Virus record (IMG/VR): IMGVR_UViG_3300035180_000559
Span: 1-24,622 of that record
Source of the DNA: a virus
DNA: 24,622 bases
Strand: one strand, 5' to 3'
Shown here: positions 1,621 to 23,507 of the stretch, in pieces
How the letters are laid out: each line of letters opens with the position of its first letter
How positions within the stretch are numbered: the first letter of the stretch is position 1
Notes under the pieces: generated by a model
The model's database searches: none
What the model was told of the DNA's origin: nothing
The model's input: the letters and a program-made list of their open reading frames with translations, nothing else
Position numbers and translations under genes: made by a program

Positions 1621-1848
1621 TTAGTACGTTGGATACATCTTCTTGGCTTCAACTTCAAGACGCTTTTCAATGAATTCACTGACGGTTTCTCGTTCAACTA
1701 ATGTCATTTCAAACATGTCTTTGTATTGGACAGATCCACGCATAAAATACACTAATTGAACAATCGCTGAAAGGATACGCTTGCGTTCCTGGTTCATCTG
1801 ATCAAACATCCGTCGGACATCGTCAGATGAACCATTACGAAGCGTCAT
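1621..1848 (-). CDS. Small protein, and -1 frameshift extension of the upstream gp26-like protein
   Basis: If started at its own ATG (1848), this frame encodes 75 residues from MTLRNGSSDD to KKMYPTY. It is highly charged and predicted helical, without a membrane segment. That ATG overlaps the stop of the upstream gene (ATGA), and no good SD precedes it. The frame is also open upstream of the ATG and is exactly the -1 frame of the upstream gene, entered through the heptamer at 1857-1851. A -1 shift would make a 341-aa fusion (265 + 76 residues). Translational coupling and frameshifting are both possible. I do not recognise a family; the position recalls the GT extension of tail assembly chaperones in other tailed phages. 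Confidence 0.75.
   Translation of the reverse strand: MTLRNGSSDDVRRMFDQMNQERKRILSAIVQLVYFMRGSVQYKDMFEMTLVERETVSEFIEKRLEVEAKKMYPTY
1791..1833 (-). promoter_or_regulatory. Candidate frameshift-stimulating hairpin
   Basis: On the - strand mRNA, GGTTCATCTGA (1833-1823) pairs perfectly with TCAGATGAACC (1801-1791): 11 base pairs with a 21-base loop that contains a small TCC/GGA stem. It begins 17 nt after the slippery heptamer. That is longer than the usual 5-9 nt spacer, but the length and perfection inside a coding region are striking. Confidence 0.6.
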
Positions 1849-2645
1849 GTAAAAAAACTTACTGGATTTGCAGCGACCTGAACAACCATTTCCTCCTTGC
1901 AGTCTTGGCATGTCTGTTGTGTTGTAAAATCCACACCCCATTGAGTGATGTTTTGTGCAGCTTGTTCAAGATTACGCTTCCATCCGAGAGGCAACATTGT
2001 AACCCATTCACGAATAAACGCCTTGTCTTCTGTATCATCAACACGACGAACCACACTGGCTAATGTATTGATAACGAGCATTTCAGCTTCATCTTGCGTA
2101 ATATTGTCTGTCTTCGTTAGTGCCGCCGATTGATACAGCTCAATCACATTTCCATATGTAAGTGGCTTCAATGTTGCAAGTTGACCGTTCGGCAATGTTG
2201 CTTTGTACTCTTCATTGACAGTAGTTGGATCAATCGACTTGGTTGACCGGATCATCTTTTGCATATCTACTTGGTACGTGTGATTCAAAGCACCAGGACA
2301 CGTATGCTGATATGTAACCTCCATTTGTGGTCCAAATGAGACAAGTCGCAAGCATACAAGCAGGAAATCAACATCCTTTGCAATAAGTTCTGTTGGCTTG
2401 ATCACTTGTGGAATGCAGTGAGTAAAAATCTCTGCAATCGCCTTGCCTGACAATAGCTTATCGGGTGTACTCAAAATAATCTCATCGATTGCAGTCATTG
2501 GATGAACTTCAACCTCACCATTCTTTACCCCATCTGCAAGTTCACCATTAAGGTAAAAAATGCCTTGTGAAGGTAGGCGGAACGTTTCACCTGGGATGCG
2601 AAGACGTTCGAGTAGTGGATTTACATGCTGTGGTGTATCTGACAT
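1845..2645 (-). CDS. gp26-like baseplate hub / candidate tail assembly chaperone
   Basis: This 266-aa protein looks like the T4 baseplate family that includes gp26. It has an N-terminal segment around LPSQGIFYLNGE (residues 24-35), then VEVHPMTAIDEIILSTPDKLLSGKAI (46-70, paraphrased from the family pattern), a cysteine at 116, and a C-terminal CxxC (C246, C249). T4 gp26 is 208 aa and required for the baseplate hub. The ATG at 2645 has the SD AAGGAGAC and a late-type box upstream. The gene ends in AGT TTT TTT ACA TGA, overlapping the next frame, and contains a perfect -1 slippery site. Its neighbour across a divergent promoter region is the tape measure gene. This recalls the frameshifting G/GT chaperones that coat tape measure proteins, but the chaperone role is inferred. 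Confidence 0.7.
   Translation of the reverse strand: MSDTPQHVNPLLERLRIPGETFRLPSQGIFYLNGELADGVKNGEVEVHPMTAIDEIILSTPDKLLSGKAIAEIFTHCIPQVIKPTELIAKDVDFLLVCLRLVSFGPQMEVTYQHTCPGALNHTYQVDMQKMIRSTKSIDPTTVNEEYKATLPNGQLATLKPLTYGNVIELYQSAALTKTDNITQDEAEMLVINTLASVVRRVDDTEDKAFIREWVTMLPLGWKRNLEQAAQNITQWGVDFTTQQTCQDCKEEMVVQVAANPVSFFT
1851..1857 (-). promoter_or_regulatory. -1 ribosomal frameshift slippery heptamer T TTT TTT
   Basis: In the upstream reading frame the - strand reads AGT|TTT|TTT|ACA|TGA. The seven T residues therefore fall exactly in the X XXY YYZ register for tandem -1 slippage. After slippage, translation continues as TAC ATG ACG into the 1621-1848 frame and bypasses the TGA two codons later. 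The register and the frame relation are directly visible; use of the site is inferred. Confidence 0.65.
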
Positions 2646-2667
2646 TTACTGTCTCCTTGTGATATGT

Positions 2668-2733: not shown

Positions 2734-4998
2734 ATGGCTACTGCTGATATCACACAACTTTCACAAGAATTAGGTCAACTGACTCGCGTTTTGCGAGATA
2801 TGGTTGCTGCATCTTCTCGTACTGTTGCCGCTCAACAAGCAAACTACATGTCGCAGCTGGATGTCAATGAACAGCTGGAAGAATACAAGAAGCAGATGAC
2901 ACAAGGTAAGGCTCTCACAAAGAAGCAAAACCAGCTACTTGATGAAGCTACCAAGTTGAAGAAAAAAGAAATTGCAGCTGAAAAAGAATACGCAAAAGCA
3001 GTTAAGGAAAACCTTGCACTCCTTAAAAGAAGGAACGTATCAGATTCAGACAAAGCAAATAGTGCACGAAAAGTATTGCAGACACAAAGAGCATTATCTA
3101 CTGCATCTACCAACTCTGCGGCTGCAACAAGTGCGCTAACAAGTTCGATGGGTGGATTGGTAAAGGGTACAAACTTTGCCGGTGCCGCCTTAATGTGGTT
3201 TGGGTCAACTCTTAAAACCGCGATTTCTCACGCAAAAGACCAGATTGTTGCAAACCAGGGAATGGTTGAAGGCACAGGAAGCTTGATTGGTGCACTTGCT
3301 AAGCAACAAGACGAAGCTCTCAAATTTGGACTTTCCGGCGCCGATTTTGCAAAGACGATTTCTGAAAATCGTCAAATGGTCAATGCAATGGGTGGCACAT
3401 CTGCGGCTACCAAGCAGGTTGAGTCCAGTATGCTCAGCTTCTATGCAATGACCGGTGATCGCTCTGTGGCGTTTGCTGCCTTGACAGAATCAATGACGTC
3501 GTTTGCTCAAAAGGGAGTAAAGCCAACTCAAAGCGTTCTTGAATCTTATACAGCGGATGTAAAAACTCTTGCTGCACAAACAGGAATGAATCAACAAGCG
3601 GCACGCGCATTTTATGATGACATTGCAAACGATGTTAATTCGATTGATATGCTGCGTTCAGCTCGTACAGAAGACAGAGCTGCACTGTTACAAAACCAAC
3701 GTGACCTTGTTCAACACTCAATTGCAATTGGTATGTCAGCCGAGCAAGCAAAAGAAGCTGCAAAGATGATGAATAAGATGGTTGGAGCAAAGCCTCTTGA
3801 TCGTCTGAAACAAGCTGCAAAAATTCGAGCACTTGGCGGTGCAATGGGAATTAGTGGTGCTGAGGAAGCTGCGAAAGCTGTTTCCATGGGCAAGCGCGGA
3901 ACACCAGAGCAACAAAAAGCAAACCAAGAAGCAATTGCGAAGTTTAGTACTGCAATGGCAAACAGAATGGACCAGGCTGCTCAACAAGGGCTTGGATCAG
4001 AAATTTTTGCAACGCAGTTGGTAGATAAGTTAGGACTCGAAGACCTGTATGGTAAAGGCAGTGCGTTTTCAACAACACTTGGTGATACACTGGCTAAACC
4101 ACTGGCAGAAGTCAAAGCTGCGTATGTTGATGCGTCGAAAGATATAGTTTTGAAGATGGGATACCACGCAGAACTGCTATACGACCAAGCAAAACTAATA
4201 GTATCAGGAACCAACTATCTTGGACCGATAGCAGCGGGCGTAGCTGCAATAGGTGCTATGTTGTTGGGTGGTAAGGCTATGGATCTTTTAGGTAAAGGTG
4301 CTGGTAAACTGCTTGGAAAAATGGGTGGTGCTGCTGGGACAGCAGGCAAGGCTGCTGGAACAGTAGCCGAAGGCGCCGCGGGCGCTGCTGGAACAGTAGG
4401 TAAAGCTGCTGGAACAGCAGGTAAGGCTGCTGGTGTTCTCGGCAAAGCTGGCACACTGTTAAAGGGTGCCGGAGTTGCTGGTGCTGTGCTGGATGCTGGG
4501 ATGGGTGTTAACGATCTGATGCAAGGTAAGGCACAAACAGAAATACCATCAGGAATGGACATGATCTCGCCAATGCGTTGGGGAATGTACGCGGGCGATA
4601 AGATCAACAAAGGCGCAGAAGGGTTGATGGGTGGCCAATCAATTGGCAGTAAAGTTTACGATTGGATGAATCCTGGTGCAGGAGCAGCACTAACGCAACC
4701 AACAACACCAAAGAAAGATGATAAAGCTGCTGAGGCTGCTAAGAAGGCTTCTGATTCAGCAGAAGCCACAAAGAAAGCAACACTGTCGTCAGCAGATGGT
4801 ATTGCCGCTCAGGTTAAACAAATGGATACATCCAACGATTTCCTCAAACGAATTGCTGATATGACTGAACAGCAACTAACGCTTGCAGAAAAACAGCTTG
4901 TTGCTATGACGATGACGGATACTGAGAAAACAAACAGTGACAGCCGCTCCAAACTGAGGAGCGACAATAAGTTTGGCGCTCAATACAACTATGTATAA
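2734..4998 (+). CDS. Tail tape measure protein (gp29 role)
   Basis: This 754-aa protein has the composition of a tape measure: Ala/Lys/Gln-rich, mostly helical. A coiled-coil-like charged region spans about residues 45-110. A small hydrophobic stretch follows near 140-165, and a stronger hydrophobic segment near 495-515 (GPIAAGVAAIGAMLLGG). Next comes low-complexity Gly/Ala with repeated AAGTAGKAAGT-like units (about 529-570), then a Lys/Ala-rich linker (about 655-690) and a helical C-terminus. By the rule of about 0.15 nm per residue it predicts a tail near 110 nm, similar to T4. The start at 2734 follows an AAGGG SD. It sits divergent from the gp26-like frameshift gene and before the portal gene. 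I see no sequence match to T4 gp29 that I could defend; the assignment rests on architecture and context. Confidence 0.75.
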   Translation: MATADITQLSQELGQLTRVLRDMVAASSRTVAAQQANYMSQLDVNEQLEEYKKQMTQGKALTKKQNQLLDEATKLKKKEIAAEKEYAKAVKENLALLKRRNVSDSDKANSARKVLQTQRALSTASTNSAAATSALTSSMGGLVKGTNFAGAALMWFGSTLKTAISHAKDQIVANQGMVEGTGSLIGALAKQQDEALKFGLSGADFAKTISENRQMVNAMGGTSAATKQVESSMLSFYAMTGDRSVAFAALTESMTSFAQKGVKPTQSVLESYTADVKTLAAQTGMNQQAARAFYDDIANDVNSIDMLRSARTEDRAALLQNQRDLVQHSIAIGMSAEQAKEAAKMMNKMVGAKPLDRLKQAAKIRALGGAMGISGAEEAAKAVSMGKRGTPEQQKANQEAIAKFSTAMANRMDQAAQQGLGSEIFATQLVDKLGLEDLYGKGSAFSTTLGDTLAKPLAEVKAAYVDASKDIVLKMGYHAELLYDQAKLIVSGTNYLGPIAAGVAAIGAMLLGGKAMDLLGKGAGKLLGKMGGAAGTAGKAAGTVAEGAAGAAGTVGKAAGTAGKAAGVLGKAGTLLKGAGVAGAVLDAGMGVNDLMQGKAQTEIPSGMDMISPMRWGMYAGDKINKGAEGLMGGQSIGSKVYDWMNPGAGAALTQPTTPKKDDKAAEAAKKASDSAEATKKATLSSADGIAAQVKQMDTSNDFLKRIADMTEQQLTLAEKQLVAMTMTDTEKTNSDSRSKLRSDNKFGAQYNYV

Positions 4999-19119: not shown

Positions 19120-21354
19120 ATGGCTAACCTAGTTTCCCCCGGTGTAAGTGTTACAGTAACGGATGAATCGTTTTTCATTCCTGCTGCTGCTTCGACCGTT
19201 CCCTTGATCTTCATCACAACAGCTGATGAAAAAAAGCAACCAAATGGAATTGCTGACGCCGCTGGTACGTTTGAAAGCAACGTAATTCGCACTGTTACTT
19301 CATTGAAGCAAAGCACAGAACTGTACGGCATTCCTCGCTTTCTTGCTGATAGCAGCGGAAATCAACAACACGGCGATGTTCGCAATGAATACGGCGTATT
19401 TGCTCTGAATCAATTCCTCGGAGTTGGCAATCTGGCATATGTTGTTCGTGCAAACGTCAACTTGAATGACAACCTCACAGACATTCGTGTGATGTGGGAT
19501 ACAAAGATGCAAGAAGCAGCATACGTGCTGGAAAACTTGGTCAATGCGTATTTGAATGAATACAACCACACAAACGGCTTTATTCCAAGTACTGTCAATG
19601 CTATCAATACACAGTCAACAACTCGTATTGCAACACTTGGCTCCGTCGTTGGTGGTTCGTTGTATACGGACGGCACATACACGAACGTTCCACTAACGGG
19701 TGGAACGGGAACAGGTGCGAAGGCAACGATTACTGTTGCGGGTGCGGCTGTTATAACAGTAGTGCTAACCAGCCACGGTTCAGGATATGCCGGTGGTAAC
19801 TCATTGACAGCATCTGCTGCTCTGATTGGTGGCACGGGTTCAGGATTCTCTGTTCCTGTGGCTACAATTGGTGGACTGGTTGGTGGTACACTGTACTCAA
19901 CCGGCACATACATGAATGTCCCATTGACAGGCGGTACAGGCACGGGCGCAACAGCAAACATTACTGTTGCCGGTGGTACTGTAACGATCGCAACGCTGGT
20001 AAACAAGGGTTCAGGGTACAGCGTTGGCGATACGTTGTCTGCGTTGAGTTCAAACGTCGGTGGTCCAGGTGCTGGATTTAGCATTGGTATTGCAACCCTC
20101 ACATCGTACAAACAAACTGTTGATCAAACAGCATTCTTGTCACTGGCAGCAACTGCTGATGCATTCATTTGGCAAATGTTCTCGTTCAAGAACTCACAAG
20201 CGTCATTTACTAATGATTTCACATCTGCTCCAAAGAACATCTATGCAAATGGATACTCTGCTCCTGCAACAGGCCTGTTTATTGGACTGACTGGTGATGC
20301 GGCTGATTGGGTTTCGAATGTGACTGGTAGTGTTGTTGGTACAGAATGGACAGCAGCAGAAGCATCTTCAACGTTGCTTGGTGCAGCCGATTCGTTCAAG
20401 TACACAGCTGAATTCCTGAATCAAACCAGCCTTGGTGCTAATGATGCAGCACGCCGTGTTGCTGTTATTACAGCGCTTGCTGCATCGATCAACAGCAATA
20501 CTGATATTCGCTCTGAAACGTACGAGTTCAACTTGATTCTGTGCCCTGGTTTCCCAGAGCTCGTTGACGAAATGATCAACTTGCGTGTAGACATTCAAGA
20601 CGAAGCATTCGTAATTGGTGATGTTCCATTCGACAAGACACCAGAAGACGTTGCACTTTGGGCAGCTACTGTATCACGCCGTACTTCACCAGGCTTGGCA
20701 TACTACTACCCACACGGGTTTGCTTCAAACCTCGACGGAACAGACGTATTTGTTGCCGCATCTGGTATCGCTCTGCGCACAATGGCATACAGCGATGAAG
20801 TATCCGAGCTGTGGTTCGCCCCAGCTGGTACACGTCGTGGCTTGGTATCTGGTGCTTCAAACATTGGTTATGTGACAGGTACACTTGGCACAGCAACAAC
20901 GTTTAATGAAGTTGCTCTTAACCAAGGTCAACGTGATAACTTGTACAAGTACTTCACAAATATCAACCCAATCGTGTTCTTCCCAGGACGCGGCATTATT
21001 GTGTGGGGTCAAAAGACTTCTGCGCCTGATGCTTCGGCACGTGACCGTATCAACGTAGAGCGTTTGATTGGTTACATCCGTCGTCAACTACGTAAGAACA
21101 CAATGTCGTTCATCTTTGAACCGAACGACCAACTAACACGTGATAACCTGAAAGCAACAGTTGATGGCTTCCTCGGAGATTTGATTGTCAAGCGCGGTCT
21201 GTATGACTTTGCTACGGTCTGCGATGAGTCCAATAACACGCCTGATCGGATTGACCGGAATGAACTGTACATCGACATCGCTTTGAAGCCTGTTCGTGCA
21301 GCTGAATTCTTGTACATCCCAATCCGCATTGTTGCGACCGGCGCACAAATCTAA
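19120..21354 (+). CDS. 18: Tail sheath protein, gp18, with inserted tandem domain
   Basis: This 744-aa protein is the contractile sheath subunit (T4 gp18: 659 aa). The N-terminus LVSPGVSVTVTDES is the typical sheath start. FGVGN-like core text appears as QFLGVGNLAYVVRANV (98-113). The C-terminal sheath core is clear: NINPIVFFPGRGIIVWGQKT (about 622-641), SARDRINVERLIGYIRR, and a final IDIALKPVRAAEFLYIPIR. Residues 171-324 are an insertion of two tandem 77-residue units that T4 gp18 does not resemble. The insert is probably displayed outward like the variable domains of other sheaths. The SD CAGGAG precedes the ATG. gp19 follows after 27 bases. Confidence 0.95.
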   Translation: MANLVSPGVSVTVTDESFFIPAAASTVPLIFITTADEKKQPNGIADAAGTFESNVIRTVTSLKQSTELYGIPRFLADSSGNQQHGDVRNEYGVFALNQFLGVGNLAYVVRANVNLNDNLTDIRVMWDTKMQEAAYVLENLVNAYLNEYNHTNGFIPSTVNAINTQSTTRIATLGSVVGGSLYTDGTYTNVPLTGGTGTGAKATITVAGAAVITVVLTSHGSGYAGGNSLTASAALIGGTGSGFSVPVATIGGLVGGTLYSTGTYMNVPLTGGTGTGATANITVAGGTVTIATLVNKGSGYSVGDTLSALSSNVGGPGAGFSIGIATLTSYKQTVDQTAFLSLAATADAFIWQMFSFKNSQASFTNDFTSAPKNIYANGYSAPATGLFIGLTGDAADWVSNVTGSVVGTEWTAAEASSTLLGAADSFKYTAEFLNQTSLGANDAARRVAVITALAASINSNTDIRSETYEFNLILCPGFPELVDEMINLRVDIQDEAFVIGDVPFDKTPEDVALWAATVSRRTSPGLAYYYPHGFASNLDGTDVFVAASGIALRTMAYSDEVSELWFAPAGTRRGLVSGASNIGYVTGTLGTATTFNEVALNQGQRDNLYKYFTNINPIVFFPGRGIIVWGQKTSAPDASARDRINVERLIGYIRRQLRKNTMSFIFEPNDQLTRDNLKATVDGFLGDLIVKRGLYDFATVCDESNNTPDRIDRNELYIDIALKPVRAAEFLYIPIRIVATGAQI
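19630..20091 (+). repeat. Two tandem 231-bp coding repeats inside the sheath gene
   Basis: Unit 1 is 19630-19860 and unit 2 is 19861-20091, each exactly 77 codons. They share (Y)-[TM]-NVPLTGGTGTGA, ITVAG, and GSGY followed by G-[ND]-[ST]-L; the ends are GGTGSGFSVPV and GGPGAGFSIGI. DNA identity is moderate, so the duplication is not very recent. Confidence 0.92.
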
Positions 21355-21381: not shown

Positions 21382-21972
21382 GTGAGCACAATCAACGATA
21401 TCGGCATCCCAGGCGTAGGTTCAGGTATCCTACATCCAAAGCAAAAAAACCGCTGGCGTGTAACGTTTGCTAATATGGGCGGCGGCACTGACAGCCAACC
21501 TGTATCAATGCAAGCGATTAACATCAATCGTCCAAAGTTGACATTCGCAAAAGTTGAACTTCACCGTTACAACTCTGTGTCGTATGTTGCAGGAAAGCAC
21601 TCGTGGGATCCAATGGCTCTCACAGTTCAGGACGACGTCACAGGTTCAGCTTCACAAGTAATTCAAGCACAACTGCAAAAGCAACAGTGGTTGATTGGTG
21701 CAGAAGGCCAATGGCTTGCAGCAGCTGGTGAAGGTTCAATCTACAAGTTTGTTACATATCTCGAAATGCTTGACGGCAACGATCAAGTTACCGAGCGCTG
21801 GACAATGGAAGGCTGCTGGTTTGAAAACGTTGACTGGACAGAACTTGACTACTCAACAGCTGACCCAGTAACAATTGTTATGTCAATCAGCTATGATCAC
21901 GCACGCCAGAATATTGGTGGATATGCGCAAGGTCAAGGCATCGCTTCTGGTGGTGCTGGTAAGATCGGTTAA
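21382..21972 (+). CDS. 19: Tail tube protein, gp19
   Basis: This 196-aa protein matches T4 gp19 (163 aa). The GTG start at 21382 follows AAGGAG at six to seven bases. Typical tube text includes QKNRWRVTFANMG (21-33), INRPKLTFAKVELHRYNSVS (49-68), HSWDPMALTVQDD (73-85) and ERWTMEGCWFENVDWTELDY (138-157). gp19 hexamers stack on the baseplate initiator around the tape measure and form the DNA channel. The Gly-rich C-terminus (YAQGQGIASGGAGKIG) is an extension of unknown purpose. Codon bias is strong. A UUCG terminator follows. Confidence 0.93.
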   Translation: MSTINDIGIPGVGSGILHPKQKNRWRVTFANMGGGTDSQPVSMQAININRPKLTFAKVELHRYNSVSYVAGKHSWDPMALTVQDDVTGSASQVIQAQLQKQQWLIGAEGQWLAAAGEGSIYKFVTYLEMLDGNDQVTERWTMEGCWFENVDWTELDYSTADPVTIVMSISYDHARQNIGGYAQGQGIASGGAGKIG

Positions 21973-22064: not shown

Positions 22065-23507
22065 ATGGCTGATCCACGTACCTATACTGTCAAACAATGC
22101 GAACCTGCTTATCTACAAAAGAGTGGAGCAGGAATTGCAGGTTCGACTGCTGACCGTCGCGACTTCTTCAACTCCATAGGGAAGATTGGTGACCTGCAAG
22201 TGTTGAATAGCATTGGCGGCGGGAATATAGGCAAGGGACTGCGTAATCTTAACAGCATTTCAAACTCAATTCGTGTTGGAACCGGCGCCCTTCCAACATC
22301 TATCGGAACATCAATTGACACAGGTGCAAACTGGGTCCTGCAACAAACAGGAATTGCACCAACAGTGGTTAATATGTTGCGTCCTTTGAATCCAGCGATT
22401 GCAAATCAAGCATATGGACAGGCAAAACAAGTATACTCCAAAGTTAAGGCGGGAAATTTCAAGACCACTGATATTCCTTCTGCACTACAAGACTTTCAAA
22501 ATTTAGAGCGGTTAGGGCGCAATATTTTTACCCCCGGCGCAGGTGATGCACAAACAGCACTTGGTGAACATTGCGAGGCTTCTCCATACGCAGTTGACCT
22601 GATTGCACGTGCTCCTAAATTCAAGTTCTTGTTTGTTGTCCAATTTATTCCCGATGCAGGATACGGCCCACTTGGCGATCAAGACTTTGGTCCACTTGAT
22701 ATGGCATTTACTGTCAAGCGATCGTCACGTCCAAATATCAAGTTTCACCACGAAGATGTGAACTATTACAACTTCCGCACCAAGGTGGTTACAAAGACAG
22801 AGTTTGATGAAATGAACATGTCATTTCACGATGATACAATGAATGTTGGTACACGGTTCTATCACTCATACATGCGAGCAATGTCACCAATCACTGGAAT
22901 TGAAGCGTCAGGAGCCCAGTCAGATATGCTGGAACAGGGAGGTATGGATTTCGTTGACAATACATTAAGCGCTAATCAAATCATTAACCAAATTGCAGCA
23001 AGTAAGTATGCAGCCTCATCAGGAACGTTGGTTAATGATCGTAAGCAAGTATTCAGTGAAATTCGTATCTATCACCTATTCGACAACGGCAATCGGATGA
23101 ATGTTTGGCGTTTTTTCAACCCACGAATCTCTGCGCTAAATTTGGATGAATTGGACATGTCTGTTGGCAACGAAGGGTCAGAATTATCTCTCACGTTCAA
23201 CTATGACAGCGTATTCCTTGATCCAGATGTATCCCTTGCATCTGCCAATAAGTATAACCTCAAACAAACACAACGTGGTGGAGTGTATCCTCTTCGCTAC
23301 AACGGGAATGCAACGAAGGGTAATAGTCCAATTGACGCAGTTACTAACATTGGTTCAAGTGGATCAGCAGCAGACTTGCTTGGACCTCTTAAAAATGCAT
23401 CTAATCAAGTTGCCAGCTTGGGTAAATCCGCTGTTGCATCTGTTGCTGATCTTGGAACGAAATTCAGCAAAGCGATTACGAGCCTTCCGTTTGGTGGTAG
23501 TGGTTAA
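22065..23507 (+). CDS. Baseplate tail-tube initiator-like protein (gp54/gp48 type)
   Basis: This 480-aa protein has a Gly/Asn/Ser-rich N-terminal extension (about 1-165), a central beta domain and a Gly/Ser/Ala-rich C-terminus (about 415-480). The central part contains PKFKFLFVVQFIPDAGYG (about 184-201), KRSSRPNIKFHHEDVNYYNF (about 219-238), MNMSFHDDTMN and IRIYHLFDNGNRMNVWRFFNPRI. This resembles the tail-tube fold, where T4 gp54 (320 aa) and gp48 are gp19-related proteins that start tube growth on the baseplate. It lies directly downstream of gp19. I favour a gp54-like initiator; a gp48-like junction protein is the alternative. The ATG at 22065 has a GAGGA SD. Confidence 0.68.
   Translation: MADPRTYTVKQCEPAYLQKSGAGIAGSTADRRDFFNSIGKIGDLQVLNSIGGGNIGKGLRNLNSISNSIRVGTGALPTSIGTSIDTGANWVLQQTGIAPTVVNMLRPLNPAIANQAYGQAKQVYSKVKAGNFKTTDIPSALQDFQNLERLGRNIFTPGAGDAQTALGEHCEASPYAVDLIARAPKFKFLFVVQFIPDAGYGPLGDQDFGPLDMAFTVKRSSRPNIKFHHEDVNYYNFRTKVVTKTEFDEMNMSFHDDTMNVGTRFYHSYMRAMSPITGIEASGAQSDMLEQGGMDFVDNTLSANQIINQIAASKYAASSGTLVNDRKQVFSEIRIYHLFDNGNRMNVWRFFNPRISALNLDELDMSVGNEGSELSLTFNYDSVFLDPDVSLASANKYNLKQTQRGGVYPLRYNGNATKGNSPIDAVTNIGSSGSAADLLGPLKNASNQVASLGKSAVASVADLGTKFSKAITSLPFGGSG

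Follow-up and report, generated by a model that had tools for sequence, protein, structure and literature searches.

The 24,622-nucleotide viral DNA analysed here (IMG/VR virus record IMGVR_UViG_3300035180_000559, positions 1 to 24,622; this whole stretch is called the window below) has on its minus strand a gene of the T4 gp26 family, and we regard it as highly probable that this locus encodes a tail assembly chaperone (TAC) pair of the gpG/gpGT type made by -1 frameshifting, with the slip itself a prediction. Most ribosomes would finish a short form of 266 amino acids (aa). A minority would decode Phe-Phe on U UUU UUU with two tRNA-Phe, which would both slip back one base with the help of a stem-loop 5 nucleotides (nt) downstream, and the slipped ribosomes would go on for another 76 codons, producing a long form of 341 aa whose C-terminal part is a T-like domain. 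If the pair works as in lambda, coating of the tape measure protein would fall to the short form and recruitment of tail tube subunits to the T-like domain; that only a minority of ribosomes slips, and what the two products do, are points that we infer.

The reading is based on the slippery sequence, its register, the open frame, a predicted hairpin, conservation in relatives, a -1 frame that evolves as coding sequence without a start, family membership, and a weak fold match. Frameshift and chaperone had both been proposed in an earlier reading of the letters alone (the sequence-only reading), and this part of its interpretation is well supported by the comparison with relatives, whereas its claim of novelty fails, as described in the last section.

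Slippery heptamer, -1 frame and predicted stem-loop in the window

The features of the locus are listed below, with the kind of evidence in brackets.

1845 to 2645, minus strand: gp26-like gene, short form (TAC-N) (open reading frame (ORF), PF12322, phrog_150, AlphaFold2 model)
1851 to 1857, minus strand: slippery heptamer T TTT TTT in the zero frame, codons 2 and 3 being Phe-Phe (sequence and relatives)
1621 to 1851, minus strand: -1 frame C-terminal (T-like) domain, 76 codons after the slip and a stop (translation, alignment with 28 relatives, coding bias)
1846 to 1848, minus strand: -1 frame ATG overlapping the TGA stop (ATGA), a possible coupled restart that would give a separate 75-aa protein (sequence)
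1777 to 1845, minus strand: downstream stem-loop, 5 nt past the heptamer (RNA fold; similar geometry in part of the relatives)
2653 to 2658, minus strand: AAGGAG, resembling a ribosome-binding site, 7 nt 5' of the ATG of the gp26-like gene (sequence)

The 3' end of the gp26-like gene reads GTA AGT TTT TTT ACA TGA on the minus strand, and the protein ends in NPVSFFT. The run of seven Ts at 1857-1851 sits in the X XXY YYZ register, one zero-frame codon (ACA) separates it from the stop, and the -1 frame (TAC ATG ACG ...) is open across the run and continues for 76 codons to a stop at 1623-1621. The predicted products have 266 aa for the short form and 265 + 76 = 341 aa for the long form. All of these points, namely the heptamer in the right register, the open frame of 76 codons and the two product sizes, had been claimed in the sequence-only reading and were confirmed by our own inspection and translation. 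The ATG at 1848-1846, which lies in the -1 frame as part of the ATGA, had been left out of it. Two overlapping frames for a short and an extended product, as in a G/GT-type gene, are thus present as sequence only, and the zero-frame X XXY YYZ heptamer of -1 programmed ribosomal frameshifting is present in the window and conserved in relatives.

A downstream structure at a short spacer, which would stimulate the slip, is present in the window and in only part of the relatives. In the window it is predicted as a single long fold at 1845-1777 that begins 5 nt past the heptamer, with a folding energy of -35.4 kcal/mol and a z of -5.5, and none of 200 dinucleotide shuffles was equally stable. The 11-base-pair perfect hairpin noticed earlier (1833-1823 with 1801-1791) is real, but it is only the inner part of this larger stem-loop.

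Conservation of the slippery heptamer among relatives

By tblastn, 65 phage records were found, all with less than 60% identity and mostly from jumbo phages (RaK2, GAP32, 121Q, PA5oct, XacN1, and their kin); 17 of these were taken for reading, and six further named records were added. Scans of IMG/VR added 277 loci, so that the total is 300 gp26 loci; a first viral contig scan with the window protein alone had given zero relatives, and the A3, cyanophage and A5 scans supplied the best 80 of at least 518, 598 and 599 confirmed relatives, respectively. The loci readable to the stop number 293, and the other seven (L050, L058, L061, L064, L117, L222, and L230) run off their contigs. After removal of 29 repeats of the same 150-nt context, the 201 loci of the -1 type, window included, correspond to 172 distinct contexts.

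Zero-frame TTTTTTN followed by an open -1 frame was found in 200 of the 293 readable relatives, in two of which the -1 frame runs off the contig. By group, the numbers are 16/16 for RaK2, 74/75 for the window's group, 80/80 for cyanophages, 12/20 for Atu, and 0/79 for a +1 group described below. A check of the conservation of heptamer and frame, which had been suggested together with the original idea, has therefore come out positive in the window's group, and the single remaining locus there (L043) keeps the frame with another heptamer. For the named records the counts are 15/17 and 3/6. The 15 tblastn records have TTTTTTC or TTTTTTT in the zero frame with the -1 frame open beyond, whereas in the other two, GXN1 and LR756508, it is the +1 frame that encodes the tail domain. 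The heptamer is TTTTTTC in 167, TTTTTTT in four and TTTTTTG in one of the 172 contexts, and the codon preceding the T-run is of ten kinds (AGT 83, TCT 29, AAT 26, GAT 11, and others).

Since F264 and F265 are invariant or nearly so in relatives and T4 gp26 also has Phe-Phe, it may be supposed that the T-run is kept only for this protein motif, with the heptamer as a by-product. In a count blind to the heptamer, the last zero-frame Phe-Phe near the stop was taken in groups chosen for protein similarity only. Of the 171 loci in the RaK2, window and cyanophage groups, 170 carry the heptamer with an open -1 frame. Phe-Phe is found near the stop in 147 of their 148 distinct ends, the exception being L043, and all 147 read T TTT TT followed by C (146) or T (1). 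Phe is coded by TTT in 71% of cases elsewhere in the same genes, and every one of the 46 clusters (70% identity) that have a Phe-Phe end shows NNT TTT, for which codon usage gives a log10 P of about -17.5; this value is rough, and its strength is overstated because the clusters share ancestry, and L043 is uncounted because it has no Phe-Phe end. In T4, where the long partner has a gene of its own, the end of gene 26 encodes Phe-Phe as GAG TTC TTT and lacks the heptamer, and the heptamer occurs in 0/73 Phe-Phe ends of the +1 group versus 147/147 in the three -1 groups. Judged from this comparison of coding ends, Phe-Phe does not suffice to account for the retention of the heptamer, and an origin as a mere by-product seems extremely improbable.

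Folding past the heptamer was compared with upstream controls in 171 contexts of relatives. The mean z is -1.06 versus -0.16, -0.24 and -0.28 in the controls, and 24% of the contexts have z below -2 versus 4-8% of the controls. The main hairpin begins 5-8 nt past the heptamer in 59/171 contexts, versus 11, 20, 21 and 33 of 172 at upstream-shifted positions, and hairpins also begin at 0-2 nt in 58/171. These data bear also on the idea that RNA polymerase, and not the ribosome, slips on the T-run. The seven Ts of the window would suit polymerase slippage, but the 167 contexts with TTTTTTC have six Ts, which are short for efficient slippage of this kind, and the fixed codon register and, in some relatives, a hairpin 5-8 nt away suit ribosomes better; we give polymerase slippage hardly any credence.

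Another explanation dispenses with the frameshift and supposes two separate genes, with the 75-aa protein made from the ATG at 1848 by translational coupling. The ATGA overlap at 1848-1845 would allow it, ATGA is found also in Phosso, Atu_ph07 and L204, and a small gene overlapping the stop is annotated separately in the records of Phosso, 121Q, BF, XbC2 and Kaldavass. However, only AAG (9 nt before) and the seven Ts precede the window ATG, and this ATG is missing in the nearest relatives: its position is ATA in L042, TCC in XacN1 and CGA in RAS14, and L043 has no -1 start until 104 nt past the stop. In PA5oct, the -1 ORF of 73 codons contains no ATG, GTG or TTG, the only three starts considered in this study. 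In 67 of the 172 contexts, the -1 frame has no start upstream of the slip and, downstream of it, either none or a first one that lies 10 or more codons inside the domain. From the zero-frame stop to the first -1 start, 93 of 161 differences fall at third positions of the -1 frame (30 disjoint pairs, p 2e-10), and in 134 overlapping pairs the differences by -1 codon position are 281, 164 and 630. Because the third-position bias is seen before any start, this stretch is probably translated in the -1 frame by ribosomes coming from the zero frame. Two separate genes would also leave the conserved heptamer unexplained, and we judge this explanation to be very unlikely; a separate 75-aa protein is possible as an extra of the window, not as an arrangement shared by relatives. 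An independent 106-aa gene starting at a -1 frame ATG at 1941 was also considered as a general explanation and rejected, because in 149 of the 172 contexts the -1 frame upstream of the slip lacks ATG, GTG and TTG; the other 23, among them the window, do have such a start.

Frameshifting and restart may also act together, so that the slip gives the 341-aa fusion and the coupled restart at the ATGA releases a certain amount of the 75-aa T-like protein on its own. The window, Phosso and Atu_ph07 carry both signals, but the ATG is not kept in the four nearest relatives, which argues against a shared need for the free product, and an A at the end of the last codon, followed by a TGA stop, is enough to create an ATGA. 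This combination appears unlikely, if worth keeping in mind, and the frameshift with its 266-aa and 341-aa products is the reading followed below.

Family, fold and surroundings of the gp26-like gene

The gp26-like protein matches Pfam PF12322 (T4_baseplate) over residues 47-265 with an E of 3.4e-9 and 37.2 bits, which is above the curated cut-off of 24.5 and places it in the T4 gp26/gp51 family, and it matches phrog_150 with an E of 8e-14. An AlphaFold2 model of the protein has a predicted local distance difference test (pLDDT) score of 89.7. In a Foldseek search against 350,542 PDB chains, the top two rows are the tail assembly chaperone of HK97, 2ob9 (E 0.35 and 0.91, probability 0.80 and 0.69). 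When Foldseek's 628 rows were re-ranked, 3klu (Z 6.3) and 2ob9 (Z 6.2 over 93 residues, root-mean-square deviation 3.8) came first, followed by 4.7 and 3.3; 3klu (YqbN) is presumably a tail chaperone of the XkdN type. Beyond the two chaperone rows, 3klu and 5ir0, nothing prominent was found in the fold search. The PA5oct record gives a hint in the same direction, since the portal protein and a neighbouring structural protein bear a note of detection by electrospray ionisation tandem mass spectrometry (ESI-MS/MS) and the gp26-like protein does not, as expected for a chaperone. Lambda gpG binds the tape measure protein and its T part binds the tail tube protein, according to the available part of PMC5009743, and by this analogy the short form and the T-like domain of the window would have the corresponding roles.

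Two further features lie on either side of the locus.

2734 to 4998, plus strand: divergent neighbour of 754 aa, tape measure candidate only for its size and its place next to the portal gene (ORF)
1563 to 1609, no strand assigned: terminator-like 17-base-pair perfect inverted repeat, between convergent genes and just past the -1 stop (sequence)

The sequence-only reading had called the neighbour the tape measure gene. Its place beside the portal gene and its size agree with this; its product gave no convincing family match in profile searches, and so the name is a positional inference. PA5oct, 121Q, RaK2 and GAP32 have a comparably sized gene at this location; the GAP32 counterpart has a weak tape measure match (E 0.028), and BLASTP of the candidate against the neighbours in PA5oct and Phosso gave no usable similarity. 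In two phages of the +1 class, immuto and SP-15, an annotated tape measure gene lies just downstream.

Several findings weigh against the frameshifting chaperone reading. The frameshift and its extended product in the window are predictions, and the ATG at 1848-1846 overlaps the stop in the -1 frame and permits a separate 75-aa protein. The fold matches are under the clear level of the tools (E 0.35; Z below 8). The neighbour taken as tape measure gene is not conserved in XacN1, RAS14 and Atu_ph07, and its counterparts in the RaK2 group belong to phrog_14121, 'virion structural protein', which PHROGs classes under head and packaging. The -1 domains of the jumbo phages match phrog_634, the family of the T4 gp51 tail, in 0/29 cases, eight of them match phrog_18291, of unknown function, and the match of the jumbo T-like domains to the T4 gp51 tail is weak (hhalign probability 7%). 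A striking hairpin is absent from most relatives, given the 24% below a z of -2, and the RaK2 group has no folding signal past the heptamer (10 contexts, mean z +0.08); since many hairpins also begin at 0-2 nt, stimulators vary or are absent in many relatives. L043, the window's sister on the tree (support 91/68, on a non-starred branch), has neither the six Ts nor Phe-Phe. Three codons upstream it carries C CCT TTA; a TAA closes the -1 frame immediately ahead of this heptamer, the frame is open from the heptamer onward, and a moved slip site of a different kind is possible for this single contig; we take C CCT TTA to be the same heptamer as that of Giardia virus. Finally, the near-identical contigs L212-L214 and L218, with weak gp26-like matches, lack both an open -1 frame and a T-like +1 frame, and are perhaps another arrangement or a false relative.

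Among the other genes of the window, profile matches identified a T4-type portal and major capsid, a tail sheath, and a tail tube. Two tail-tube-like genes in tandem (21382-21972, 196 aa; 22065-23507, 480 aa) both match phrog_4542. In the tail sheath gene (19120-21354), residues 154-353 show similarity to portions of fibre, baseplate and virion proteins (phrog_5342, phrog_6005, phrog_438) and are perhaps an inserted surface domain. The window's record, a fragment of 24,622 bases, has a single PF12322-like place and shows no second, fused paralogue within that length. Scans of the window for Rfam families and tRNA genes gave no matches, and no sigma-70-like promoter was found in 1400-2900. The terminator scan gave one terminator-like site within the gp26-like gene, as expected by chance, and, with its loop limit of 8, did not pick up the 17-base-pair inverted repeat (arms 1609-1593 and 1579-1563, with no long T-run on the minus strand).

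The +1 lineage and comparison with known systems

In a second lineage the tail domain lies in the +1 frame (L223-L302, L009, L013, L020, L021, L022, L215-L217, and L220). Its members include Microcystis phage Mel-JY01, Flavobacterium phage immuto, SP-15, GXN1, and many metagenomic contigs. From 88 candidates, removal of three repeats and of L278, whose +1 frame is closed, left 84 distinct contexts with zero-frame TTT and then T or C inside an open +1 stretch. The sites are TTT TTT TGG CCT (52), TTT TTT TAC CCT (15), TTC TTT TGG CCT (4), and others (13), and a shift of tRNA-Phe from TTT to TTY at +1 is permitted at 84/84 of them. Five of the +1 ORFs have no common start after the slip, and, in 28 disjoint pairs, third positions of the +1 frame account for 140 of the 276 differences that precede any start (p 2e-9). 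A -2 slip was also considered for this class; it fits TTT TTT T and not the TTC TTT T or TTT CTT T forms, and so +1 is preferred.

The +1 group ends in Phe-Phe as well, in 73 of 76 distinct ends, and the -1 heptamer occurs in none of these 73. Only four of them have a T directly ahead of Phe-Phe, and all four have TTC next. The second Phe codon is TTC in 146/147 ends of the three -1 groups versus TTT in 73/73 of the +1 group, so the length of the run differs as well as its register. In a tree of 63 proteins, the three states of the family need 3 changes versus 21.6 in shuffles. One -1 record, LR756511 (L025), is placed inside the +1 part with moderate support (88/53, 90/31), in a tree that has no outgroup and no known root.

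We therefore think it fairly likely that the PF12322 family has three solutions for a short and a long product round the same Phe-Phe end. In the first, the ribosome would slip by -1 on NNT TTT TTY in the window, its jumbo relatives and cyanophages, and on TTT TTG in phiM9; in the second, tRNA-Phe would slip by +1 on TTT-Y (TTT TTT TGG CCT, TTT TTT TAC CCT, and variants); and the third would be the two genes of T4, gp26 and gp51, with a permanent fusion. As a part of this proposal, and held with the same fair degree of confidence, a one-base change of register in the same T-run goes with a switch in the direction of frameshifting.

Frameshifted tail assembly chaperones such as lambda gpG/gpGT are treated by Atkins et al. 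2016 (PMC5009743), where a 2004 paper by Xu, Hendrix and Duda is cited, and T4-like tail chaperones were reportedly identified by Vladimirov, Gautam and Davidson in 2022 (Virology 566:9-15). The sequence-only reading had offered a possible recasting of gp26 as a tape measure chaperone as new, and this is overtaken by the 2022 identification. It had also stated that it knew of no such frameshift in T4-type gp26 genes, and this novelty does not seem to stand either, because the available part of PMC12846349 describes poly-T -1 signals as known in TAC-N genes of T4-like phages and credits them to the 2022 paper of Vladimirov et al. A poly-T -1 frameshift in T4-type chaperone genes thus seems to be already in print. 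The device appears to be the same and the gene family is the same, and the jumbo and +1 lineages may or may not be covered there.

Literature searches, for which most subscription journals were outside reach, gave no paper on tail-chaperone frameshifting in RaK2-, GAP32- or PA5oct-like phages and no +1 class in the PF12322 family; the +1 lineage is possibly unreported. The word 'frameshift' does not occur in the text of PMC6892783, PMC5259590 and PMC7247149, 'ribosomal frameshift' occurs in PMC7412058 only in a reference on dnaX, and the available parts of PMC10448857 and PMC12859696 contain nothing on the PF12322 gene family. None of the 17 fetched records of relatives annotates the frameshift.

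Frameshifting of TAC genes by -1, -2 or +1 is established across tailed phages, with T4 as a stated exception, according to the accessible portion of PMC5009743. As described in the same portion, lambda gpG/gpGT has a short form and a rarer -1 extended form with a T-like extension, as proposed for the window, and the window differs in its sequence family (PF12322), in its heptamer of six or seven Ts, and in being divergent from the tape measure candidate. The TAC of phage Adele and of Andersonviridae, as described in PMC12846349, is similar in that its short chaperone gene ends with a T-rich site (GTTTTT) at which a -1 frameshift is conserved; it belongs to other phage families and is likened here by description only.

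T4 gp26 and gp51 both match PF12322 (E 8.8e-64 and 3.9e-52), and residues 147-246 of gp51, its extra tail, match phrog_634. The -1 domains of six cyanophage-group loci and of phiM9 match the same family in 7/7 cases, and therefore T4 gp51 looks, by sequence similarity, like a permanently fused long form: its tail is what cyanophages and phiM9 encode in the -1 frame. T4 differs in having two paralogous genes, one short and one fused and long, on opposite strands, and a gene 26 with no heptamer. Some T4-like phages are likewise described, in the available part of PMC10885494, as having a short gene and a fused long gene in place of frameshifting. As in T4, the G and GT forms of 0305phi8-36 (gp143/gp144) are two paralogous genes, with no frameshift reported in the available part of PMC2147016; this likeness, too, is by description only. 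T4 then looks like a two-gene lineage, and the older state is not polarised by a tree that has no outgroup.

By this comparison, frameshifting would be a widespread route to the long tail chaperone in T4-type phages outside T4's group, and the small genes annotated as 'gp51' or 'hypothetical' after gp26 in jumbo phages and cyanophages would be -1 extensions and not genes. The window would then be a further case of a known device, in lineages whose records carry no frameshift annotation, and the family, with lineages that would shift frame in opposite directions, would serve as a natural experiment.

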